DNA of 41,074 bases. Origin: a virus. Where the stretch lies: positions 1 to 41,074 of the IMG/VR virus record IMGVR_UViG_3300025647_000086. One strand, written 5' to 3'. Position numbers and translations under genes: made by a program. Below the pieces are notes generated by a model. That model had not been told where the DNA came from, did not search any database, and saw only the letters and a list, made by a program, of their open reading frames with translations. Positions 5,525-36,753 of the stretch are shown here, in pieces (position 1 is the first letter of the stretch; every line of letters starts with the position of its first letter).

Positions 5525-6235
5525 ATGAAATTTATAGAAGAAGAAACTCACATCGCATTAACTGATTACAAATTAATAAATAAATACAACTATAAGAAGT
5601 ATTCTAGAGCAGAAGATCCAGAAACAGGTAAAAGATTATATGCTGTAGATGGAACTAAATTACCTAGTGTAACAACGATTTTAGGAGCGACAAAAGACCA
5701 AAGCGCTTTAGATGCATGGAAAAAAAGAGTAGGCGAGGCAGAAGCAGATAGAATTAAAAACGAAGCTGCACTTGTTGGTACTGAAATGCATTTAGTCATA
5801 GAAAAATATATCCAAGGAGAAGGGTATTTAAATCTATCAGAAACAGGAGCTAAAGCTAGAAAGATGGCTCATACCATATTAAGTAAATGTAATGATATTA
5901 CAGAAGTTTGGGGCAATGAAGTAAGTTTAGCTTATCCAGAAAAATATGCAGGCGCAACAGATCTTGTTGCAGTTGCAAATGATAAGCCTACCATATTTGA
6001 TTGGAAACAAACAAATAAACCAAAAAGAGATGAATGGGTAGAAGATTATAAATTACAGTTAGGAGCATACAGTTTAGCTCATACACAAATGTATGGTCCA
6101 ATAGAAGCAGCTTGTATACGTATGTGTTCTAGAAATTACGAATACCAACAATGGTTATTACAAGATCAGGAATTAAAAAACTATCAAGAAAAATTTATGG
6201 AACGATACGAAAAGTTCTTGTCAATTTCTAAATAA
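5525..6235 (+). CDS. PD-(D/E)XK exonuclease, RecB/Cas4-like
   Basis: A 236-residue nuclease of the RecB-like PD-(D/E)XK superfamily, as in phage recombination or host-DNA-degrading exonucleases. The signature is complete: Gly-Thr-Glu-Met-His at 85-89, Glu132, Asp146 (Gly-Ala-Thr-Asp), Asp159-Trp-Lys161 and the Gln178-xxx-Tyr182 motif that usually follows. The first 50 residues hold an N-terminal part typical of phage members, with a Pro-Ser-Val-Thr-Thr-Ile-Leu segment. It likely degrades linear duplex DNA to make ends for recombination or to recycle nucleotides. It is the last plus-strand gene before a bidirectional hairpin terminator. Confidence 0.85.
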   Translation: MKFIEEETHIALTDYKLINKYNYKKYSRAEDPETGKRLYAVDGTKLPSVTTILGATKDQSALDAWKKRVGEAEADRIKNEAALVGTEMHLVIEKYIQGEGYLNLSETGAKARKMAHTILSKCNDITEVWGNEVSLAYPEKYAGATDLVAVANDKPTIFDWKQTNKPKRDEWVEDYKLQLGAYSLAHTQMYGPIEAACIRMCSRNYEYQQWLLQDQELKNYQEKFMERYEKFLSISK

Positions 6236-6662: not shown

Positions 6663-6710
6663 TTATTTTATATTAATAAAATCAAGCTCTTCTTCAGTCC
6701 AAGGCCACAT
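6663..6710 (-). CDS. Putative 15-residue micro-protein after Hsp20
   Basis: A 16-codon frame (MWPWTEEELDFINIK) whose ATG overlaps the Hsp20 stop codon as TAATG, the same coupling used elsewhere in this genome. The two Trp and acidic helix are unusual for random AT-rich sequence. It may be a real coupled micro-ORF, but there is no independent evidence of translation. Confidence 0.3.
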   Translation of the reverse strand: MWPWTEEELDFINIK

Positions 6711-7132
6711 TATTTAACCTTGATTTCCTGAGCTTTTATTTCTTCTGGTTCATTAACACCTAATTTAACTGTTAATACACCGTCTTCCATTTTAGCTTCA
6801 TCTACAACAACATCATTTCTCAATGAAAATTGTTTAAAGAATTTTCTAGCTGCAAGACCTTTTTCGATATATTCTTTTTCCTTGTCATCTACTTGACCAG
6901 CAACAGTTAATATACCATCTTTGTATTCAACTTTGATATTCTTTTTATTGAATCCAGCTAAACCTAGTTCAATTCCGTACTCACCTTTTCCGTATTTTAC
7001 CACATTGTAAAATGGAAACGATTGTACTTTTGATAAATTCATAAACATTTCGTCAAATGAATCACCAAATAATGTGTTTGATTTATTCCAAAGATCTTTT
7101 TGGAATTTGTTAATTATATCTAAACCTGTCAT
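6710..7132 (-). CDS. Small heat-shock protein, Hsp20/alpha-crystallin family
   Basis: A 140-residue Hsp20-family holdase that would bind unfolding proteins without ATP. The central alpha-crystallin domain runs from about residue 45 to 130: strands around Tyr-Gly-Ile-Glu-Leu-Gly-Leu-Ala-Gly-Phe, Asp-Gly-Ile-Leu-Thr-Val-Ala-Gly, then Phe-Xxx-Lys-Xxx-Phe-Ser-Leu-Arg and Asp-Gly-Val-Leu-Thr-Val-Lys-Leu. These are the classic conserved segments of bacterial IbpA-like proteins and of T4-like cyanophage Hsp20s. It has a strong Shine-Dalgarno (AAGGAGG) and a good upstream promoter. A role in folding phage or host proteins during infection is inference. Confidence 0.92.
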   Translation of the reverse strand: MTGLDIINKFQKDLWNKSNTLFGDSFDEMFMNLSKVQSFPFYNVVKYGKGEYGIELGLAGFNKKNIKVEYKDGILTVAGQVDDKEKEYIEKGLAARKFFKQFSLRNDVVVDEAKMEDGVLTVKLGVNEPEEIKAQEIKVK

Positions 7133-18776: not shown

Positions 18777-18986
18777 ATGGACATTAATAAATGGAAAAGT
18801 GTTGCTGTAAAAAAAGAAACGCACACACTTTTAACCGCACTCTGCACTATCAAAGAAAGGAATCCAGCGCGAATGATATCCAAACTGGTCAATGATTATG
18901 TAGAAATACTTGCAAAAAAGAACAAGCGATCGTTAGATGCTTATCGAAAGGAACTTCTTAAAAAAGGTTCTGATGCAATTAAGTAA
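18777..18986 (+). CDS. Ribbon-helix-helix (Arc/CopG-like) DNA-binding protein
   Basis: A 69-residue protein with the RHH layout: a short strand Lys-Ser-Val-Ala-Val-Lys-Lys-Glu (residues 6-13) followed by helix Thr-His-Thr-Leu-Leu-Thr-Ala-Leu-Cys and a second helix with Asn-Pro-Ala-Arg-Met-Ile-Ser-Lys-Leu-Val-Asn-Asp-Tyr. RHH dimers bind short palindromic operators. It is the only recognisable transcription factor of this type here, so it is a candidate binder of the repeated operator-like sites elsewhere in the window. AAGGAG precedes the ATG. Confidence 0.65.
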   Translation: MDINKWKSVAVKKETHTLLTALCTIKERNPARMISKLVNDYVEILAKKNKRSLDAYRKELLKKGSDAIK

Positions 18987-19491
18987 AATAAAAGATATAT
19001 CAAATTGTACGGTGAATATCATTGAAGATAATCAACCTGGGGTTTATTTTCTTTTTGATAAGGATAAAAAACTTATTTACATTGGAGAAAGTAAATTCCC
19101 TTTGATTCGAATACTCGATCATTATCATAAACATTATAAAATTCAGAAAGTGGGTGGTCGGCGATCTGGCTTTCAACAAAAAGGTATTGGTCCTGTATTT
19201 CATTATTTTAGAACAATGCATGTACAATCCGAAGATTATAGAATCCGACAACATTATGAAAAGCGATGGATCCGAAAATATGATCCACCTTTAAATTATA
19301 ATACGAGAGCACTTGGTTATGATTTATCTTGGAAAGAAATTAATTCTTTTATTCATGTGTATGAATCTTTTTTTAAAGCACAGATGACTTGGTCTCGTTA
19401 TTTAAATGATGAAGTGTGTGCGAAAAGAGAAAGTTACATTACATTGAAAGCAAGAAAAAGAAAATTACGATATAACGCAACAGGGAGGTAG
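18973..19491 (+). CDS. GIY-YIG endonuclease
   Basis: A 172-residue protein with a GIY-YIG nuclease core: Pro-Gly-Val-Tyr-Phe-Leu-Phe (the GIY strand), then Lys-Lys-Leu-Ile-Tyr-Ile-Gly-Glu-Ser (the YIG strand), a His/Tyr-rich helix and a conserved Tyr-Glu-Lys-Arg-Trp-Ile-Arg-Lys-Tyr-Asp-Pro-Pro-Leu-Asn-Tyr-Asn segment with the usual Glu and Asn. The C-terminus is basic. It could be a homing-type or repair nuclease. It starts inside the end of the RHH gene at an ATG with AAGG upstream. Confidence 0.8.
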   Translation: MQLSKIKDISNCTVNIIEDNQPGVYFLFDKDKKLIYIGESKFPLIRILDHYHKHYKIQKVGGRRSGFQQKGIGPVFHYFRTMHVQSEDYRIRQHYEKRWIRKYDPPLNYNTRALGYDLSWKEINSFIHVYESFFKAQMTWSRYLNDEVCAKRESYITLKARKRKLRYNATGR

Positions 19492-21582: not shown

Positions 21583-21686
21583 AACTACCTTGTGGGATGA
21601 ACACCTAAATGGTTTGAGAATATTAAAAAGGTTAAAAATATCTTATTGGACTAGAAAAACTTGACCGATTTAAGTATGATGTGGCA

Positions 21687-22196
21687 ATGCCTAAAAAAGC
21701 TAATATATTAAAAACTGTACATGAATTAACTCCAAAACAAAGAAAGTTTGTGGATACACTTGTTGCTAATTGGGGTTCTATATCCAAATCTAAAGCAGCG
21801 GAAGAAGCTGGTTATAAATCAAAAACTAAAAACGGTTTATCTGAAATGGCTTCAAGATTAACAAATCCAAATTTAAATCCTCACGTAGTTAGATATCTTG
21901 AAAAGAAATTGGCACAAGAAGAAGCAAAGTATGGAAACAAACTTCGTTCTTTTAAAAGATTAGAAAAGTTTGGCGACTTAGCCGTAGATAAAAATCAATT
22001 TGCAGCAGCAATCAATTCTGAATTCAGACTAGGACAACTAGCAGGAATGTATGTAGATAGAAAAGAAGTAACCCATAATATGTTGGAGGGTATGTCTCGT
22101 GAACAACTTGAAAAAAGGTTATCCGAATTGGAACAAAAGATCGGTGATGCCAAAAATATCATTGACGTCACGCCAGAAGAAATTATGGAAGAGTAA
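21687..22196 (+). CDS. terS: Terminase small subunit
   Basis: A 169-residue DNA-recognition subunit of the packaging motor. The start reads Leu-Thr-Pro-Lys-Gln-Arg-Lys-Phe-Val-Asp (about 13-22), then Ser-Lys-Ser-Lys-Ala-Ala-Glu-Glu-Ala-Gly-Tyr-Lys-Ser (a helix-turn-helix as in Terminase_2-type small subunits). The C-terminus is a charged coiled coil (Glu-Gln-Leu-Glu-Lys-Arg-Leu-Ser-Glu-Leu-Glu) likely for oligomerisation. I prefer ATG 21687 over GTG 21681. A TATGAT lies just upstream, consistent with a very short leader. Unusually, the large subunit is 4 kb downstream. Confidence 0.85.
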   Translation: MPKKANILKTVHELTPKQRKFVDTLVANWGSISKSKAAEEAGYKSKTKNGLSEMASRLTNPNLNPHVVRYLEKKLAQEEAKYGNKLRSFKRLEKFGDLAVDKNQFAAAINSEFRLGQLAGMYVDRKEVTHNMLEGMSREQLEKRLSELEQKIGDAKNIIDVTPEEIMEE

Positions 22197-22285: not shown

Positions 22286-22579
22286 ATGGCAAAAAGAAAA
22301 ATAACAATAAATAAAAAATCAAAAGATTGGAAATCTCGTTTCCCTCTCGTTGAAATAACGTGGGTAGACATTTGTAGTGATTCCTCTTGGAGATCCCTGA
22401 AAGAGCTGTCTGATTCTGAGCTGCCAAAATGTGTTACGAAAGGTCATCTGTTTAGTCAATCCAAAGGTGTTACAAGAGTGTTTGGAGATTATAGTTTAAA
22501 TGCAAAAGGTGACATAGACGAGATAGGAAACAGTACAATTATACCTAATTCTGTCATTGAAGAAATTAAAAAAATATGA
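22286..22579 (+). CDS. Conserved small phage protein
   Basis: A 97-residue protein with a Lys-rich start followed by Val-Glu-Ile-Thr-Trp-Val-Asp-Ile, Ser-Ser-Trp, Lys-Cys-Val-Thr-Lys-Gly-His-Leu and a beta-rich middle. This layout (Trp-x-Asp-Ile ... Ser-Trp ... Cys-x-Thr-x-Gly) is familiar from many small phage proteins of unknown function. The coding DNA contains two CTCGTT words (22335, 22346), the first of the cluster found downstream. Confidence 0.6.
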   Translation: MAKRKITINKKSKDWKSRFPLVEITWVDICSDSSWRSLKELSDSELPKCVTKGHLFSQSKGVTRVFGDYSLNAKGDIDEIGNSTIIPNSVIEEIKKI

Positions 22580-22662
22580 AAAAACATACTAGACAAATTA
22601 TCTTTTCTGTTTGGGTAATCATTATTTTATTCGTTGCCTTGACCTATTTAAAATGGCTCTAA
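22576..22662 (+). CDS. 28-residue membrane mini-protein
   Basis: Begins by ATGA overlap with the preceding gene. Basic N-terminus (Met-Lys-Lys-His-Thr-Arg) then one membrane helix of about 18 residues. Overlaps the start of the VRR-NUC gene by 10 bases. Plausible single-pass mini-protein. Confidence 0.45.
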   Translation: MKKHTRQIIFSVWVIIILFVALTYLKWL

Positions 22663-23045
22663 GAAAACGCGAATCTAAGCTGTTTGATCGTATCAAGAAG
22701 AATATTAAAAACGTACATTTTACAAGGATAGAAAGCTCAACTATCAACGGAATACCTGACGTACATGGCACTGGTTCTGGTCATTCTTTTTGGCTTGAAT
22801 TGAAATCTAATACAGGCAAGTTTCCGAAGCTTGATAAATTTCAAATCGCTTGGTGTTACGAAGAATACCGACATGGCGGTAGAGTTTTTATTCTGTATCA
22901 GGCCCTCTCGCAGGGAGCCCTAGAACTTTACAGCGTGCAAGGTATCCCTACGGATAGTAAAAACCTCGTTCTCGTACACTCGCTACCCGACCCTGTTCCC
23001 GTTTCCCGTTGGGATGAGCTCAGGTCCTTCCTGATCCATCACTAG
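22653..23045 (+). CDS. VRR-NUC-type nuclease
   Basis: A 130-residue PD-(D/E)XK nuclease of the VRR-NUC kind: Gly-Ile-Pro-Asp36, Trp-Leu-Glu49-Leu-Lys51, Gln64 in Phe-Gln-Ile-Ala-Trp, and Gly-Gly-Arg-Val-Phe-Ile-Leu. Such phage proteins cleave branched or nicked DNA and are often found beside terminase genes. From about residue 95 the coding sequence becomes much more GC-rich and contains copies of the repeat words seen downstream (ACCTCGTTCTCGTA; TCCCGTTTCCCGTT), so the C-terminal tail appears to be made of repeat sequence. Confidence 0.8.
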   Translation: MALRKRESKLFDRIKKNIKNVHFTRIESSTINGIPDVHGTGSGHSFWLELKSNTGKFPKLDKFQIAWCYEEYRHGGRVFILYQALSQGALELYSVQGIPTDSKNLVLVHSLPDPVPVSRWDELRSFLIHH

Positions 23046-23359
23046 CATCCTCCCAGATGGTGAGCTGCAGCGTGGTCGGTATCCCGTTTCTCGTTCTCGT
23101 TTGCCATTCCCGTTTCTCGTTTATTAACGGACACCGCAGGAGCGTCCTTCGCAGCTCAGGATGCGGATGGAAAGAGTAGCTCAGATCCCGTTTCCCGTTT
23201 GACAAAGAACAACAGATTGGTTAGGTTTTGGTAAGGAGCAGCAGGACCAGCTCCAGAGGAAATTCAAATCCCGTTTCTCGTTCTTACACGGCTTGGCGTG
23301 TAATAACTAATAAGCAGCAGGAGCGTCCTTCGCTGCGAAGCTCAGTCCCGTTTTTCGTT
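22997..23359 (+). repeat. Spaced 14-mer repeat TCCCGTTTYYCGTT
   Basis: Six copies at 22997, 23082, 23108, 23186, 23269 and 23346, mostly 77-85 bases apart with one 26-base step. Between them lies a second degenerate unit around CAGGAGCGTCCTTCGC followed by AGCTCAG (23136-23160, 23317-23345; weaker at 23392-23420), each able to fold a small AGGA/TCCT stem. The 23046-23500 stretch has no gene that I can support; these repeats fill it. Confidence 0.7.
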
Positions 23360-23441
23360 GGTCGGTGGCGAAAGGCAAATGGTTAGGGAACACAGGACGC
23401 CATCCTTCTGGCAGCTCAGGAAAAAAAATAAAAATTAGCTC

Positions 23442-23494
23442 TTGACATTGAGGATTACATATCTTATGTAGATGGGATAACTTTAACAAAGGAG
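23442..23494 (+). promoter_or_regulatory. Promoter plus shared leader box A
   Basis: TTGACA (23442-23447), a 17-base spacer and TATGTA (23465-23470), followed by the box AACTTTAACAAAGGAG (23479-23494) that includes the ribosome-binding site of the gene at 23501. The identical 16-base box occurs before the gene at 24283, and a near copy before 25218. Confidence 0.6.
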
Positions 23495-23500
23495 AAAACA

Positions 23501-23767
23501 ATGACAAAACCACAACAGTTCGTCTACTTCAAAGATTTACAGAAGGGGGACGTTATCAAAACGAATCACTTACATCCGCTGCATCATGTGACTGCGAAGG
23601 TGATGGAATCACCGCGCCAGGGTAAAGGAGTCAAGAAGACACTTCTGTGTGAAGTCCACGGTACTCAGCTGGGATTGTTTGATGAAGTAGGATCTATCTA
23701 CAGCAAACAGGCGCTGCTGCGTTTGAATGCCGACAACACAACTTGGAGCAGGATTCTTCATGACTAA
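23501..23767 (+). CDS. Unknown protein in GC-richer island
   Basis: An 88-residue protein, beta-rich at first (Phe-Lys-Asp-Leu-Gln-Lys-Gly-Asp-Val-Ile-Lys-Thr), with a His-rich loop and basic middle; it may be a small beta-barrel. Its base composition and codon choice are clearly more GC-rich than the phage core, pointing to a different origin. It has an excellent ribosome-binding site in the shared leader box. Not recognised. Confidence 0.6.
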   Translation: MTKPQQFVYFKDLQKGDVIKTNHLHPLHHVTAKVMESPRQGKGVKKTLLCEVHGTQLGLFDEVGSIYSKQALLRLNADNTTWSRILHD

Positions 23768-24044
23768 GATGGATGCACCAGAAGCGGGGCAGGAATATCT
23801 CTTGGTTGGGGGATCCAAAGATAAATGCATTGCCAACGGCAACAGCTGGTCTGAGAGTAAGGTGAAGAAACGTTACCTCGTTCTCGTATCAGATCTCGTT
23901 GCTCGTAGGGTCTACGTTGAGGCCTCGTCGGAGAAGGAAGCTCTGGAGGCTGCCAACTACGGAGAGTGGGAGATCCCTGCAGATGTAGAAAGCGAAGAGG
24001 TGGTAGATCGTCAGGCAGAAGAGGTTCTCGATGTGGAAGAATAA
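23760..24044 (+). CDS. Unknown acidic protein in GC-richer island
   Basis: A 94-residue protein starting 8 bases before the end of the previous frame. The middle reads Tyr-Leu-Val-Leu-Val-Ser-Asp, Arg-Val-Tyr-Val-Glu-Ala-Ser-Ser-Glu-Lys-Glu-Ala-Leu-Glu-Ala-Ala, a strand-turn-strand-helix reminiscent of DpnD/PcfM-like small proteins. The tail is very acidic (Glu-Glu-Val repeats). Part of the strand region is encoded by CTCGTTCTCGTA repeat words. Function unknown. Confidence 0.55.
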   Translation: MTKMDAPEAGQEYLLVGGSKDKCIANGNSWSESKVKKRYLVLVSDLVARRVYVEASSEKEALEAANYGEWEIPADVESEEVVDRQAEEVLDVEE

Positions 24045-24077
24045 TGTAATCAAACAACAGGAGCGGGAAGCTGATGA

Positions 24078-24203
24078 ATGTGGTTTCTAATTCTCGTTCT
24101 GTTAATGATCAGCGTCTCGTTGACAACCGATGCCGATTGGGTAACCTTCGGCGTCGGACTGCTGGCTCTGGCGATGGCAGATGGATTAGTGAACTTATTT
24201 TAA
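24078..24203 (+). CDS. Small two-helix membrane protein
   Basis: A 41-residue hydrophobic protein: a membrane helix at residues 2-15, a short Thr-Asp-Ala-Asp-Trp loop, then a second helix (Val-Gly-Leu-Leu-Ala-Leu-Ala-Met-Ala). GGGAAG lies 8-10 bases upstream of ATG. A longer overlapping frame in another phase is unconvincing. Role unknown. Confidence 0.5.
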   Translation: MWFLILVLLMISVSLTTDADWVTFGVGLLALAMADGLVNLF

Positions 24204-24221
24204 ATACAACTAAAAAGTTAG

Positions 24222-24277
24222 TTGACAAGTTCTCTTATTATGATAAGACAGGAGAAAATAAAACTTTAACAAAGGAG
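24222..24277 (+). promoter_or_regulatory. Promoter-like element plus shared leader box B
   Basis: A perfect TTGACA (24222-24227) has only a weak -10 (TAAGAC, 16-base spacer); TATGAT at 24239 is too close for standard spacing. A small palindrome CTTAT-TATG-ATAAG overlaps it. Box AACTTTAACAAAGGAG (24262-24277) is identical to the one at 23479 and supplies the ribosome-binding site of the gene at 24283. Confidence 0.5.
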
Positions 24278-24282
24278 TTACA

Positions 24283-24690
24283 ATGGGGTTAGATATGTAC
24301 ATGTACAGCACTGACAAACGTATAGAAAGTTTGGAAGTGGAAAACAGAGAAAAGAAAGAGGGAGAAGAAGAGCAAGAAAGGGAGTTAGGGTATTGGCGAA
24401 AGCACAATCGTTTGCATGGTTGGTTTGAGGAGAAGTGGTGTAATCGTCATAGTGATGTTGACACCGATTTCAACTGTGTTCGGTATTACCTTTCTCGTGA
24501 TGAGTTGCTGAATTTGGAAAAAGATATTAAGGAAGAAAAGTTGCCCGCCACGCAAGGTTTCTTCTTTGGCAATGATAGTTACTCGTATGATGAACATGAG
24601 GAGCAGAAAAAATATGACTTGGACATCATTGATAAAGCAAAAAAAGAACTTGAAGCTGGTCGCTTTGTGTACTATTCAAGTTGGTGGTAA
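24283..24690 (+). CDS. MGLDMY-type conserved phage protein
   Basis: A 135-residue protein starting Met-Gly-Leu-Asp-Met-Tyr-Met-Tyr, a start shared by a large phage family. It also has Tyr-Trp-Arg-Lys-His-Asn-Arg-Leu-His-Gly-Trp-Phe and a C-terminal Gly-Phe-Phe-Phe-Gly ... Leu-Glu-Ala-Gly-Arg-Phe-Val-Tyr-Tyr-Ser-Ser-Trp-Trp. Members are occasionally mislabelled as kinases; the real function is not known. The Lys/Glu-rich insert near 25-40 is family-variable. Confidence 0.75.
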   Translation: MGLDMYMYSTDKRIESLEVENREKKEGEEEQERELGYWRKHNRLHGWFEEKWCNRHSDVDTDFNCVRYYLSRDELLNLEKDIKEEKLPATQGFFFGNDSYSYDEHEEQKKYDLDIIDKAKKELEAGRFVYYSSWW

Positions 24691-24700
24691 TTAAGTTTCT

Positions 24701-24727
24701 CGGTGGCGAGTAGCACTCTCGCCACCG
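24701..24727 (+). terminator. GC-rich hairpin, likely terminator
   Basis: A perfect 10-bp stem (CGGTGGCGAG / CTCGCCACCG) with a 7-base loop lies just after the stop codon at 24690. A mixed T-rich stretch follows (TTCCTCGTTTGTTTG). It is either a terminator for the MGLDMY-type gene or the first stem of the structured region that follows. Confidence 0.6.
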
Positions 24728-24744
24728 TTCCTCGTTTGTTTGAT

Positions 24745-24914
24745 GTGTGCTAGTTTTGTTTATCCTCGCTAGCACGCACCAACCAAGCTCGTACGGAAAA
24801 AGATAACATCGCTTCGGTTGGAAGCACGGTACGGTCAGCACCAAGGGGAGTTTCCCAAAGCTGACCACAATATGAGTGGTCTTTTGTCAGAGTAGCTCCT
24901 GTTTTAGACCACTC
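24745..24914 (+). ncRNA. Candidate structured RNA with competing stems
   Basis: The 24691-25217 gap has no supportable gene. Within it: stem GTGTGCTAG/CTAGCACGC (24745-24777), GCTTC/GAAGC (24811-24825), GGTCAGC/GCTGACC (24833-24866) with inner GGGA/TCCC, and GAGTGGTCT/AGACCACTC (24874-24914). GACCAC (24863-24868) can instead pair with GTGGTC (24876-24881), so segments 1:2, 2:3 and 3:4 compete as in attenuators. No U-run follows segment 4. Strand and function are uncertain. The rest, 24915-25140, is AT-rich with two CTCGTT-containing patches. Confidence 0.4.
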
Positions 24915-25143
24915 GCCCTAATCTCGTTCTTTCTCGTTATCAAACATTTCTTAAAATCTTGAGGGTACTAGGATACCTCGCAACCTCGTTTCGTCAATTC
25001 TCGGGCATCTGTGGAAGACTTTTTTAAGCAGGCAGCACCCAAAATGGCAGGATTGCAGAAAATCTAAAAAATAAAAATGTAAAAATTTTATCCACAAACC
25101 AAGTAAAAAATAATTAAAATTTATTTTTTATAACTATTGTAAT

Positions 25144-25217: not shown

Positions 25218-25604
25218 ATGACAACAGTAAAACAAAAAAATCTGCCAACATTAAGTCAAGCAGATAAACGTGTGCTTAATTCATACGTTGCTCAATCTTA
25301 CTTATACAAAAAGTATAGTAAGTTAAGAACTGATACTAAAGAAATTGTGTCAGGAATTTTTGATAGAGCAAAAATCAATATCATAATTCTTGATAACAAA
25401 TCTTTTGTTCAAAAAATAAATCGTAATCAAAGGCGATTCGATTCCACTTCTTTTATTGAGTATGTAAATAAAAGTGGCGACAGTGAATTAATCGACATGG
25501 TTAATAAATTCTATAAGTCAGTGGACACAGTAGAGTTTAAACCATTTAATGCTGATTATGATGTTGCAATGAAAAAAGATTTAGGGGGTTTTGATGTCAA
25601 ATAA
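25218..25604 (+). CDS. Unknown protein, first of operator-controlled cassette
   Basis: A 128-residue basic, mostly helical protein with a Lys/Asn/Arg-rich middle (Lys-Ile-Asn-Arg-Asn-Gln-Arg-Arg) and no recognised motif. It is the first gene under the palindromic operator, and AAAGAGG precedes the ATG. An auto-regulator role is possible since it is basic and follows the operator, but no DNA-binding fold is visible. Confidence 0.55.
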   Translation: MTTVKQKNLPTLSQADKRVLNSYVAQSYLYKKYSKLRTDTKEIVSGIFDRAKINIIILDNKSFVQKINRNQRRFDSTSFIEYVNKSGDSELIDMVNKFYKSVDTVEFKPFNADYDVAMKKDLGGFDVK

Positions 25605-25884
25605 AAACTTACCTTCTTTATTCAGTGCTATGTTAAGTGAAAAAGTTGATAGTAAAAATATCGACTTAGATAGAGTACATAGTTTAATGCAGAATGAAAA
25701 ATTCAAATCATTAAATTATGAAATACTTTATAAATTCCTTGAGAGTGCTGTTGAGGAATTTATACTCACCAACAATGGCAACCCACTTGCTGATGACTTT
25801 AGAAATAGAGTTGTTAATAAAATGGGTGATGTGTTGAACTTGTTACTAACTGGCAAAGTTGCTGATGAGCAAGATAAACATTAA
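25594..25884 (+). CDS. Unknown protein, second of cassette
   Basis: A 96-residue helical acidic protein from ATG 25594, overlapping the end of the previous gene by 11 bases, with TTAGGGGG upstream. It shares an Asn-Leu-Pro-(Thr/Ser)-Leu segment near its start with the first protein of the cassette, hinting at a common short interaction motif. No known family. Confidence 0.55.
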   Translation: MSNKNLPSLFSAMLSEKVDSKNIDLDRVHSLMQNEKFKSLNYEILYKFLESAVEEFILTNNGNPLADDFRNRVVNKMGDVLNLLLTGKVADEQDKH

Positions 25885-26122
25885 ATACACTGATGATATA
25901 CCCCCAATTGTTTCGGGGGTATATCTACTCATTAACTCTAAGTATAATAGAGTGGACTATGTTGGGTGCTCTCGGAATGTGTACCAATGTGTTATGGGTA
26001 GTTATCACTTAAACCCAAAGATACATAAGCTAAGAGTATTACAATGCTCATGGAATAACTTGCGGTACTATCAGAAAAGAATAGCCAATATGTTTAGACC
26101 TAGATTAAACTCTATTAGATAA
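25865..26122 (+). CDS. GIY-YIG-like mini-nuclease
   Basis: An 85-residue protein from ATG 25865 (20-base overlap with the previous gene). It has Ser-Gly-Val-Tyr-Leu-Leu-Ile-Asn (GIY strand), Val-Asp-Tyr-Val-Gly-Cys-Ser-Arg-Asn-Val (YIG strand plus Arg) and a His-rich helix, but the rest of the fold is short and the catalytic Glu is not obvious. It may be a trimmed, possibly inactive, GIY-YIG protein. With the VRR-NUC gene it makes two nuclease-like genes between the terminase subunits. Confidence 0.65.
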   Translation: MSKINIKYTDDIPPIVSGVYLLINSKYNRVDYVGCSRNVYQCVMGSYHLNPKIHKLRVLQCSWNNLRYYQKRIANMFRPRLNSIR

Positions 26123-26172: not shown

Positions 26173-26223
26173 CGGCTATCCCCACCCCCCTTTTGCTTGA
26201 TTTATGGTACCAGCGACGAAGAC

Positions 26224-26251
26224 TTTACAGTCGATTACATACATGTATAGT
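26224..26251 (+). promoter_or_regulatory. Putative promoter for large terminase
   Basis: TTTACA (26224-26229), a 16-base spacer and TATAGT (26246-26251). The predicted start near 26258 leaves about seven bases before ATG 26265, again a very short leader with no Shine-Dalgarno. Confidence 0.5.
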
Positions 26252-26264
26252 ATGCAAAATAGAT

Positions 26265-27734
26265 ATGTCGCACGAATTACTTACAACTGAACAGTTGCGC
26301 GATAGAGTAGAAAAAGTATACATCGAACACATTAAACTGTGCCAAGATAATTTTTTGTATTTTGTTCAAACTGTTTGGCCAGATTTTATTTGTAGAAAAG
26401 AAAAGGACCCAAAGAAATGGGGCCACCATCAACATATTGCCGACGAACTTACTAAAATTTCAAAAGGTTTGAATAAGAGGCTCATTGTGAATATGCCACC
26501 ACGTCATACAAAATCAGAGTTTGCATCTTATCTATTCCCAGCTTGGTTTATAGGGAAGTTTCCTAAGAAAAAAATTATGCAGGTATCTCACAACGCAGAA
26601 CTTGCAGGAAGGTTCGGAAGTAAGGTTCGTAACTTAATTGATAGTCCAGAGTATAAACAGATCTTCGGAGATGTTAAACTACGAGAAGATAGTAAGGCAA
26701 AAGGCCGATGGGAGACCAATCATGGTGGGGAATATTTTGCAGCGGGTGTAGGCGGTTCTATCACAGGACGAGGGGCGGACTTACTTATTATCGACGATCC
26801 ACATACCGAACAAGACTCATTATCGGATAATGCTATGGAGAGAGCATATGACTGGTACAATTCAGGACCCAGACAACGTTTGCAACCAGGAGGAACCATT
26901 GTCGTTGTTATGACCCGTTGGGCTCAAGACGATATTACAGGAAGACTCATCCAAGCACAAAGTGAACCTAAAGCGGATAAATGGAAGTTAATAGAATTTC
27001 CTGCCATCTTGAAATCAGGAAACCCTGTTTGGCCAGAGTATTGGTCACTCGAAGAACTAGAAGGTGTTAAGGCATCTATCTCACCTAAAAACTGGAATGC
27101 ACAGTACATGCAGGACCCAGTGGCCGAGGAAGGTGCAATCTTAAAACGTGAATGGTGGCAGCCTTGGAAAGGACAGGTTCCAGATTTAAAACATATTATC
27201 CAAAGTTATGATACAGCATTTTCTAAAAAAGAAACTGCAGACTATTCTGCGATTACGACATGGGGGATATTTGAACCTAGTCCAGGGGAGAATGCTTTAA
27301 TTTTATTAGACGCAGAAAAAGGTCGTTGGGATTTTCCAGAACTAAAAGCAGTCGCTATGGAAGCATATAAGTATTGGGAACCAGAGTCCATTATTGTAGA
27401 GGCAAAGGCCACTGGCCAACCGCTCATTCAAGAGATGCGTAGAGCAGGTATTCCTGTAATGGATTTCGTACCTACCCGTGGTAAAGATAAACATTCTAGA
27501 GTAAATGCTTGTGCTCCTGTATTTGAGTCAGGTAATGTTTACTATCCTCATGGAGAGCATTTTGCAGAGGAAGTTATTGAAGAATGCGCAGCATTTCCTT
27601 ATGGTCAGTATGATGATTTTGTAGATAGTACAACACAAGCTGTGTTAAGATATCGTCAAGGTAATTTCGTATCCACATATATGGATGAACCAGAACCAAT
27701 GAAGATAGAAGGAGAATATAAATATTATGTCTGA
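26265..27734 (+). CDS. terL: Terminase large subunit
   Basis: A 489-residue packaging ATPase/nuclease of the Terminase_6 type. ATPase: Walker A-like Met-Pro-Pro-Arg-His-Thr-Lys-Ser (77-84), in which Arg-His-Thr replaces the usual glycines as in many relatives; Walker B Leu-Leu-Ile-Ile-Asp-Asp-Pro-His (173-180); and Val-Val-Met-Thr-Arg-Trp coupling motif (about 214-219). RNase H-like nuclease: Asp316 in Ser-Tyr-Asp-Thr-Ala, Glu379 in Ile-Val-Glu-Ala, and the Asp450/451/454 cluster. I chose ATG 26265; a longer frame from TTG 26193 would run through the promoter-like element. It overlaps the next gene by 8 bases. Confidence 0.95.
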   Translation: MSHELLTTEQLRDRVEKVYIEHIKLCQDNFLYFVQTVWPDFICRKEKDPKKWGHHQHIADELTKISKGLNKRLIVNMPPRHTKSEFASYLFPAWFIGKFPKKKIMQVSHNAELAGRFGSKVRNLIDSPEYKQIFGDVKLREDSKAKGRWETNHGGEYFAAGVGGSITGRGADLLIIDDPHTEQDSLSDNAMERAYDWYNSGPRQRLQPGGTIVVVMTRWAQDDITGRLIQAQSEPKADKWKLIEFPAILKSGNPVWPEYWSLEELEGVKASISPKNWNAQYMQDPVAEEGAILKREWWQPWKGQVPDLKHIIQSYDTAFSKKETADYSAITTWGIFEPSPGENALILLDAEKGRWDFPELKAVAMEAYKYWEPESIIVEAKATGQPLIQEMRRAGIPVMDFVPTRGKDKHSRVNACAPVFESGNVYYPHGEHFAEEVIEECAAFPYGQYDDFVDSTTQAVLRYRQGNFVSTYMDEPEPMKIEGEYKYYV

Positions 27735-35125: not shown

Positions 35126-35337
35126 AAGGTTATTCTACCGTAAAAAAAGTAGCTAATAAAAGAATTGAAATGCTCAAAGACACTCTAGTGTACTCCGTTG
35201 ACAATGTGGAGCAACTTCACTATATTAGAGGACAAATCAAATCCCTAGAGGATTTGCTTCAGGATCTTAAAGACCTGCAGCTTAAACAGGAGCGATTAAA
35301 TGACGGAGAGCTTAGAGGCTTCGAAAGAAGTACCTAA
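35104..35337 (+). CDS. Small coiled-coil late protein
   Basis: A 77-residue, almost entirely helical and charged protein (heptad-like Leu/Ile pattern through residues 25-65) from ATG 35104. Short coiled-coil proteins between lysis/portal and scaffold genes are common in marine phages; function unknown. It overlaps the GroES-like gene by 38 bases. Confidence 0.55.
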   Translation: MQDEEIVEGYSTVKKVANKRIEMLKDTLVYSVDNVEQLHYIRGQIKSLEDLLQDLKDLQLKQERLNDGELRGFERST

Positions 35338-35764
35338 AAAAACAGAAGCGTTACTAGACGCTTACAAAGAACAAGAAAAAATCCAAACTTTTCTAGATGC
35401 AAAATCTGTATCAGAAAATAAATCACTTTTAGATAGACTTCCTTCCCCAACAGGGTGGAGACTTTTGGTATTGCCTTATGCAGGACCAAAGAAAACTAAG
35501 GGTGGGATTATTCTTACCGATACAACCAGCGAAACAATACAGATGACAACCGTATGTGCATATGTATTAAAAGTTGGTGATCTTGCCTACAAGGACAAAG
35601 AAAAATTTCCAGATGGACCATGGTGTCAAAAAGGAGATTGGGTAATCTTTGGAAGATATGCAGGTTCAAGATTTAAAATAGATGGTGGAGAAGTTCGTAT
35701 TCTTAACGACGATGAAATCATTGCTAAGATAGAAAACCCAGAGGATATTCATCACCAGTATTAA
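35300..35764 (+). CDS. GroES-like co-chaperonin
   Basis: A 154-residue Cpn10-fold protein. After a charged 45-residue N-terminal extension it reads Pro-Thr-Gly-Trp-Arg-Leu-Leu-Val-Leu-Pro-Tyr and Lys-Thr-Lys-Gly-Gly-Ile-Ile-Leu (the beginning and mobile-loop base of GroES). It continues with Ala-Tyr-Val-Leu-Lys-Val-Gly-Asp, Lys-Gly-Asp-Trp-Val-Ile-Phe and a C-terminal Val-Arg-Ile-Leu-Asn-Asp-Asp-Glu-Ile-Ile-Ala-Lys-Ile. Phage versions (T4 gp31 principle) redirect the host chaperonin to fold capsid proteins; its position just before scaffold and capsid genes fits. AGGAG precedes the ATG. Confidence 0.85.
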   Translation: MTESLEASKEVPKKTEALLDAYKEQEKIQTFLDAKSVSENKSLLDRLPSPTGWRLLVLPYAGPKKTKGGIILTDTTSETIQMTTVCAYVLKVGDLAYKDKEKFPDGPWCQKGDWVIFGRYAGSRFKIDGGEVRILNDDEIIAKIENPEDIHHQY

Positions 35765-35793
35765 ACACATACGCAAAAAAACAGGAGCTATAA

Positions 35794-36753
35794 ATGTTAG
35801 AAGAAAACAAATCACCAGAAGTGGAATTAGACACGGATGGTATTCAAGAACAATCTGTTGAAGTAGAAAACACAACAGAAGAATCAAAAGAACCTCAATT
35901 ACCAAGAGAGGAAGTAGATTTAGGTTATACTGAATCTAAACCTCAAGGTATTGAAAAAATTTCCGTTGAGGAAACAGAGGACAAGAAAGAAGAAGTTAAG
36001 GATGACTTAGGTTCTATTTCTGAATCTGTACAAAAAAGAATCAATAAATTAACTTTTAAAGTTAGAGAACATGAAAGAAGAGAAAAAGCAGCTTTAGATT
36101 ACGCTAAGTCTCTTAAAAAACAACTTGAAGATACAAGTTCTAGGTTTTCTAAAACAAGTAAAAGTTATGTTGAGCAATACTCGGCTAGAGTTGCTGCAGA
36201 ACAAGAGAAAGCAAAGGTGGCTTTAAGAGACGCCATTGCAGAACAAGATGCAGATAAAATAGCTGATGCAAACTCTTTAATTGCTAAGTTAGCGGTAGAA
36301 GCCGAAAGAGCTAGAATGACTGCTGAAGAAGAAGAAGAGAAAACAACTCGACAAAAAACAGTTTCTCAGGAACCTACTCAAGCACCTCAAAATCCAACCT
36401 ATCCAGAACCATCTGTCAGAGCGAAATCTTGGGCAGATAAAAACGAATGGTTTGGAGAAGATAAGATAATGACAAGTGCTGCATTCCAAGTACATCAAGA
36501 CCTCGTGGACCAAGGGTTTGACGCGGAAAGCGATGAGTATTATAATGAGATAGACAAAGTTATGAGAGAAAATTTCCCTCATAAATTTGGCAAGAAACAG
36601 GAGCTACAGAAACCCGTCCAAACTGTCGCATCTGCACAAAGAAACCAAAGCGGACGCCGATCAGTGAAACTCACTCGTTCACAAATAGCTATCGCTAAAA
36701 AATTAGGAGTGCCACTAGAGGAATACGCAAAATACGTGAAGGAGAATGCATAA
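35794..36753 (+). CDS. Scaffolding protein
   Basis: A 319-residue, highly charged, mostly helical protein. It has an acidic first 80 residues, a coiled coil at about 85-190 (Lys/Glu/Ala-rich), a Pro-rich linker near 200, and a basic C-terminal helix-turn-helix-like end (Ser-Val-Lys-Leu-Thr-Arg-Ser-Gln-Ile-Ala-Ile-Ala-Lys-Lys-Leu-Gly-Val). This composition and its position before the capsid gene are typical of podovirus scaffolding proteins, whose basic C-terminus binds the coat protein. AGGAG is upstream. Confidence 0.8.
   Translation: MLEENKSPEVELDTDGIQEQSVEVENTTEESKEPQLPREEVDLGYTESKPQGIEKISVEETEDKKEEVKDDLGSISESVQKRINKLTFKVREHERREKAALDYAKSLKKQLEDTSSRFSKTSKSYVEQYSARVAAEQEKAKVALRDAIAEQDADKIADANSLIAKLAVEAERARMTAEEEEEKTTRQKTVSQEPTQAPQNPTYPEPSVRAKSWADKNEWFGEDKIMTSAAFQVHQDLVDQGFDAESDEYYNEIDKVMRENFPHKFGKKQELQKPVQTVASAQRNQSGRRSVKLTRSQIAIAKKLGVPLEEYAKYVKENA

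Follow-up and report, generated by a model that had tools for sequence, protein, structure and literature searches.

A conserved hairpin in a marine phage genome as a probable antisense sRNA against the Shine-Dalgarno sequence of a capsid-scaffold-like gene

A conserved RNA hairpin in a viral genome record of 41 kb (IMG/VR record IMGVR_UViG_3300025647_000086, positions 1–41,074; hereafter the window) carries a loop that is exactly complementary over 13 nt to the Shine-Dalgarno (SD) sequence of a scaffold-like gene encoded ~11 kb away. Judged from sequence, the hairpin is likely the active part of a phage-encoded antisense sRNA, which would be transcribed with the gene upstream of it and would block translation of the scaffold. 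The features that carry this reading are the following.

24874–24914 (+): conserved RNA hairpin (stem 3:4), 9-bp stem GAGTGGTCT (24874–24882) / AGACCACTC (24906–24914), 23-nt loop
24893–24905 (+): antisense seed in the loop, TAGCTCCTGTTTT, with the invariant core TAGCTCCTGTT identical in all hairpins found
35778–35790 (+): target site AAAACAGGAGCTA, the SD of the scaffold-like gene, 3 nt before the ATG at 35794
35794–36753 (+): scaffold-like gene (target), phrog_28737, with a weak match to the head scaffolding protein phrog_8865

Structure and conservation of the hairpin

The hairpin lies in non-coding DNA between the ORFs at 24283–24690 and 25218–25604, where the original prediction had placed four segments capable of mutually exclusive pairing. 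All of its arms are present: GGTCAGC (24833) with GCTGACC (24860), GACCAC (24863) with GTGGTC (24876) across a 7-nt loop, and GAGTGGTCT (24874) with AGACCACTC (24906), forming stems 1:2, 2:3 and 3:4, respectively. The additional stems it had described upstream are also real (24701–24727, 24744–24779 and a CCAACC/GGTTGG pair). RNA folding of 24690–24960 yielded −91.2 kcal/mol compared with −63.9 ± 4.5 kcal/mol for shuffled sequences (z = −6.0), and none of 200 shuffles folded as well, indicating structure far beyond chance; the same stretch folded as DNA gave z = −5.4. The minimum-energy structure is a row of separate hairpins in which stems 1:2 and 3:4 are both formed.

These arms had been interpreted as an attenuator or riboswitch, in which competition among 1:2, 2:3 and 3:4 would control one or more downstream genes. 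The arms are indeed complementary and mutually exclusive on paper, and stem 2:3, with TTTTGT after it, is scored as terminator-like; the accompanying statement that no T-run follows is true of stem 3:4 in the window. Energetically, however, the competition is one-sided: stems 1:2 (−11.5 kcal/mol) and 3:4 (−12.3 kcal/mol) together reach −23.8 kcal/mol, against −8.9 kcal/mol for the rival stem 2:3. Segments 1 and 2 are wholly absent from three relatives (L005, L039 and L041), and in a fourth (L007) stem 1:2 now reads GGGTAT/ATACCC, with ACCAAGGGGAGTTTCCCAAA still as its loop, so that the 2:3 complementarity is lost and 3:4 is kept. Because homologous regions thus retain the position and stem 3:4 without the competing arms, which is the outcome named in advance as refuting it, the attenuator logic was not upheld. 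Furthermore, there is no leader peptide, and no Rfam model matched at gathering threshold, searches up to an E-value of 5 giving chance-level matches only. The hairpin does precede ORF 25218, yet it directly follows the gene at 24283–24690, and a predicted terL promoter lies downstream of it. We consider attenuation very unlikely. The alternative offered alongside it, a stand-alone RNA or translational switch rather than a terminator, comes near to our best explanation but missed the target of the loop.

An alignment of the intergenic region among relatives located conservation in one short block, corresponding to 24872–24930 of the window, whereas the upstream hairpins come and go. Of the elements first named, it is stem 3:4 that persists, together with its loop rather than the competing arms, and this stem covaries among relatives. 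Across 13 distinct sequences, all 117 stem cells are paired (100%), with three stem pairs changed on both sides (13 cells), while slid control structures reached at most 52% pairing. Alternative stems in relatives include GAGAGGTCT/AGACCTCTC, GCGAGGTCT/AGACCTCGT and GGGTGGTCT/AGACCACCT. A covariance model, which matched the window hairpin with 71 bits at 24871–24917, found two more families with the same loop core and rebuilt stems: family D (TGAGAGG-T-CTTT / AAAG-T-CCTCTCA) and family E (GTGTGTGAATC / GGGTTCACACAT). Every hairpin found has the same loop core, UAGCUCCUGUU, and the GAG preceding the seed (24890–24892) is likewise invariant. Such constancy of the loop on a varying stem suggests that the loop acts at the RNA level. 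The seed has a mean unpaired probability of 0.69; the loops of families A, B, C and F are able to form a small internal CAG/CUG stem, which would partly mask it.

A terL search returned 80 loci. The hairpin was present in all 32 loci with terL identity of at least 83% and sufficient upstream DNA. It was absent from all 25 more distant loci, each with at least 1.9 kb of upstream sequence and including Pelagibacter phage HTVC023P; 27 loci with too little upstream DNA were left out. Hairpin-bearing phages form one clade (support 100/97), and the co-occurrence of hairpin and target in this single clade perhaps reflects one evolutionary event; no lineage was found in which loop and target changed together. 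The folding z score of −6, the covariation and the presence in 32 of 32 close relatives identify the element as a conserved structured non-coding RNA. A gapped loop-motif scan of 85,000 prokaryote genomes gave 45 matches scattered over unrelated taxa, about the number expected by chance (~60, a rough calculation from collection size and pattern), and thus provides no evidence of a cellular source. Matches in the viral collection that lack the stem (e.g., L116, L120, L131 and L154) were set aside as coincidences in coding sequence.

The region between the upstream gene and the core hairpin is occupied by accessory elements.

24833–24866 (+): accessory hairpin 1:2, variable, present in some close relatives and absent in others
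24701–24821 (+): three more accessory hairpins, which close relatives have exchanged or lost

This stretch (24701–24866) is modular. In a 95%-identical relative (L084), a whole hairpin, GTGTGCTAG...CTAGCACGC, is replaced by an unrelated GAATTC...GAATTC hairpin with identical flanks; three accessory hairpins are missing in L041, and L004 has additional ones. In the hairpin with loop ACCAAGGGGAGTTTCCCAAA, the stem has been rebuilt and the loop retained. A recombination or packaging site was also considered as the basis of the hairpin swapping. A second local feature is the repeat CTCGTT, of which the window holds 24 copies (12.3 expected; none of 100 shuffles had as many). Sixteen plus-strand copies are crowded into 22335–24990, and some stand in tandem after the hairpin in relatives; they are possibly a Rho-loading signal, being C-rich and G-poor, or a signal of another kind. 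The repeats follow many hairpins but are lacking in L007, L039 and L100, and were dropped as part of the element.

Complementarity between the loop and the scaffold leader

Loop positions 24893–24905 form an exact 13-nt complement with 35778–35790. Both sites are encoded on the plus strand, which fits the need of antisense pairing. This strand of the window is enriched in the reverse complement of the loop, having 10 matches to CAGGAGCTAC (at most one mismatch; 1.0 expected), one of them the hairpin itself, a count that none of 100 shuffles equalled. Among the 48 gene leaders in the window, the scaffold SD has the longest match to the loop and ranks first in hairpin–leader dimer energy (−9.8 kcal/mol; mean −1.7, SD 2.1), a value that none of 300 loop-shuffled hairpins attained. 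Contiguous match and whole-hairpin dimer energy were used in place of a bulge-allowing RNAduplex ranking, which had placed a spurious start at 24080 above the scaffold in the window. With the anti-SD CTCCTG held fixed, 0.8% of shuffled loops reached 13 nt with some leader in one genome, so the match in a single genome is not decisive by itself.

The comparison covered all reading frames of the window and of six relatives from the hairpin clade. The contiguous match between loop and scaffold leader spans 12–14 nt in these relatives and is the longest of any leader, except in G027, where it ties with GroES or falls one nt short of it (GroES 14, scaffold 13); for one contig without the hairpin sequence (G023), the family D loop of its relatives served instead. 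In a hairpin-minus genome (G031), no leader matched the loop over more than 8 nt. When 39 records were searched for the scaffold protein, leaders were recovered from 17 genomes of the hairpin clade, all of which contain AACAGGAGCTA, while hairpin-minus leaders of the same gene all have other SDs, mostly of the AAGGAGG type. This 11-mer is present in 10 of 10 distinct hairpin-clade scaffold leaders and is the sole 11-mer found in all leaders of its gene; the best shared 11-mer elsewhere in the same loci reached 5/8 for GroES, 7/11 for ORF 37284 and 4/12 for the capsid gene. An independent pattern scan that fixed only ACATACGCAA...ACAGGAG recovered 57 scaffold loci with 19 distinct leaders, and AACAGGAGCTA was found in 57 of 57. 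CTA continues ACAGGAG in 19/19 distinct scaffold leaders versus 0/24 unrelated matches, all 19 reading AACAGGAGCUA. The scaffold SD is largely unpaired in its own leader. As expected of a trans-encoded sRNA, the hairpin exposes a conserved seed whose complement is the translation initiation region of a distant gene.

The scaffold leader carries one further conserved element.

35767–35776 (+): ACATACGCAA, in nearly all hairpin-plus leaders and absent in hairpin-minus leaders

Its frequency in the pattern scan is not independent, as the scan required it. No complement of ACATACGCAA was found near the hairpin. The element may be a protein-binding or ribosome standby site, and it resembles the ACATACATGTATA stretch of the terL promoter.

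Two other readings of the shared sequence were weighed. The first accepts a trans-acting sRNA but takes a host mRNA or another RNA as its main target, the scaffold match being secondary or a by-product of an anti-SD-like loop. The CUCCU of the loop would fit many SDs, pairing with the scaffold site neither requires nor explains the invariant GAG, and many phage sRNAs act on host genes, such as PreS on dnaN (PMC12197685). Nevertheless, the match runs well beyond the SD core, the extra CUA occurs in 19 of 19 distinct scaffold leaders and not in other leaders, and hairpin-minus relatives lack the extended match, which makes a principal target outside the scaffold leader unlikely. The second takes the common 11–15-bp word as a DNA site, an operator or recombination site present in inverted orientation at two places, with the hairpin incidental. 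In its favour, each site is the reverse complement of the other in the genome; however, a double-stranded DNA site would not need a stem that covaries around a fixed loop, and in every genome the second copy is spaced from a start codon as an SD would be. We regard a DNA site as highly improbable and retain antisense pairing with the scaffold leader as the preferred reading.

Separate transcripts, proposed action and known counterparts

The surrounding genes and promoter are arranged as follows.

21681–22196: terS-like gene
24283–24690 (+): phrog_7971-like gene, with the hairpin in its 3' untranslated region
26193–27734: terL reading frame, with its ATG at 26265
26224–26251 (+): predicted late promoter, TTTACA-16-TATAGT, sigma-70-like, directly before terL
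31322: portal gene
35300–35764 (+): GroES co-chaperonin gene, phrog_3188, Cpn10
37874: major capsid gene

The window also holds a replication module (exonuclease, helicases, primase and DNA polymerase genes), and the scaffold-like gene sits between the GroES and major capsid genes. By terL, the nearest named relative is HTVC023P (78% identity); the window has no DNA similarity to named phages, and a tRNA/tmRNA search found none. Two ORFs resemble GIY-YIG endonucleases by eye (18937–19491, GVYFLFDKDKKLIYIGES; 25859–26122, GVYLLINSKYNRVDYVGCS); the latter is located between the hairpin and terL and has no Pfam or PHROG match.

The order of gene, stop codon and hairpin recurs in relatives, and TTTACA-16-TATA(G/A)(T/A) is conserved before terL in the hairpin clade, a few tens of bases upstream of the ATG. 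It stands about 1.3 kb downstream of the hairpin in the window and 1.2–2.0 kb across the clade. This predicted downstream promoter implies that hairpin and target should be on different transcripts. A palindrome at 26223–26265, ATACATGTAT, overlaps the spacer and −10 of CTTTACA-16-TATA and is a possible operator for late-gene control. In subclade C, the gene stop and hairpin are followed within a few bases by a strong intrinsic terminator (GTTTGCCG-loop-CGGCAAAC-T6-7; 8-bp stem, U6–7). Given this terminator and the predicted separate late transcript, the RNA should act in trans.

The position of the hairpin between a stop codon and, in subclade C, such a terminator would also suit an element that does no more than stabilise the 3' end of the mRNA or help to terminate the upstream gene. 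A stability element, however, needs no invariant loop, and families A, B, D and E have no U-run after the hairpin; we give this reading very little credence. The window's own family has no recognisable intrinsic terminator, and stem 3:4, with no U-run directly after it, was rejected as one.

The preferred antisense reading would work as follows. The hairpin would be the active part of an sRNA formed from the 3' end of an early or middle transcript that includes 24283–24690, probably a 3'UTR-derived sRNA. Its 23-nt loop would offer the C/U-rich anti-SD seed UAGCUCCUGUU[UU], in which CUCCU, the SD complement as in 16S rRNA, is extended by UAG and GUU(UU). On the late mRNA, a separate transcript in this model, the seed may pair with the scaffold SD (35778–35790; AUG at 35794), and since such pairing covers the SD, the 30S subunit should be excluded. 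Scaffold synthesis could thereby stay low until there is more late mRNA than sRNA, or be kept in proportion to capsid protein. As the SD is mostly unpaired in the leader and there is nothing to open, repression is likelier than activation. We infer from sequence that the sRNA is made, accumulates, acts in trans and represses. Somewhat less firmly, although still with the balance in its favour, we propose that these RNAs form a new family, in which a lytic marine phage devotes an antisense sRNA acting in trans to timing or dosing capsid assembly by SD occlusion of scaffold and, in some lineages, GroES. In such a family, the target SD would have diverged from the consensus seen in relatives and kept its complementarity to the loop, while the stem was free to be rebuilt.

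The phage antisense RNAs studied in depth come mostly from temperate model phages, where they control lysogeny, immunity or host genes; the present RNA belongs to a clade related to HTVC023P-type pelagiphages and appears aimed at the ratio or timing of capsid scaffold. The alphaproteobacterial 'cuckoo' (CcsR) RNAs are hairpins with an anti-SD-like, C/U-rich loop that derive from the 3' portion of a small gene. They differ in being bacterial, in occurring as several tandem copies and in their loop sequence.

Among phage RNAs, the closest counterpart in function is c4 of P1/P7, whose complementary stretches are thought to lie in RNA loops and which blocks ant translation around the ribosome-binding site (PMC12197685). 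Like c4, the RNA described here would be a phage-encoded, loop-borne antisense element against the ribosome-binding site of a phage gene. Unlike c4, which controls an antirepressor in the immunity circuit of temperate phages, it would address a capsid-scaffold gene, is trans-encoded, its target being predicted to sit on a different transcript 11 kb away, and has just one conserved seed loop. The likeness is one of function; no homology is claimed, and there is no Rfam match. P22 sar, which blocks translation initiation of ant, and lambda OOP are likewise phage RNAs that pair with phage mRNA (PMC12197685), but they are encoded opposite their targets as cis-antisense RNAs and govern lysogeny. 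STnc6030 of Salmonella prophage BTP1 represses a virion structural gene, tailspike, by pairing (PMC12197685); in contrast to the present RNA, it is transcribed antisense to the tailspike gene, has long complementarity and serves superinfection exclusion. The hairpin and its target, both on the plus strand and 10.9 kb apart, do not have the cis-antisense arrangement of sar, OOP and STnc6030. VpdS (phage VP882) and PreS (lambda) are trans-acting phage sRNAs with short seeds, VpdS acting on phage and host RNAs and PreS on host dnaN (PMC12197685). They differ in being Hfq-dependent, in belonging to temperate phages and in having no capsid-scaffold target. No trans-acting phage RNA against a capsid-scaffold gene was found in the literature, a weak indication given that subscription journals lay mostly outside the search.

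With seed, target and compensatory mutations all defined, the proposal is directly testable, and the seed motif and covariance model are available for finding more members. More generally, the case indicates that a partner RNA is able to mould the SD of a phage structural gene.

GroES and other complementary sites

A shorter match to the loop suggests a second target.

35284–35293 (+): candidate second target, SD of the GroES gene, AAACAGGAGC, 10-nt match

GroES would possibly be co-regulated with the scaffold through this match. The GroES SD reads AAACAGGAGC in nearly all hairpin-plus genomes, and in subclade C it reads AAACAGGAGCTACT, a 14-nt match to the loop. The site is kept as a candidate because an upstream, overlapping reading frame encloses it and two hairpin-minus genomes contain comparable words. 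Exact loop complements of 12–13 nt were also found in coding sequence of the window, at 1171–1183, 5841–5852 and 36595–36607; they occur in some near relatives only, are not consistently conserved, and were rejected as targets. In addition to the GroES gene, the phage carries a gene at 6710–7132 (−) that by eye resembles a small heat-shock protein gene.
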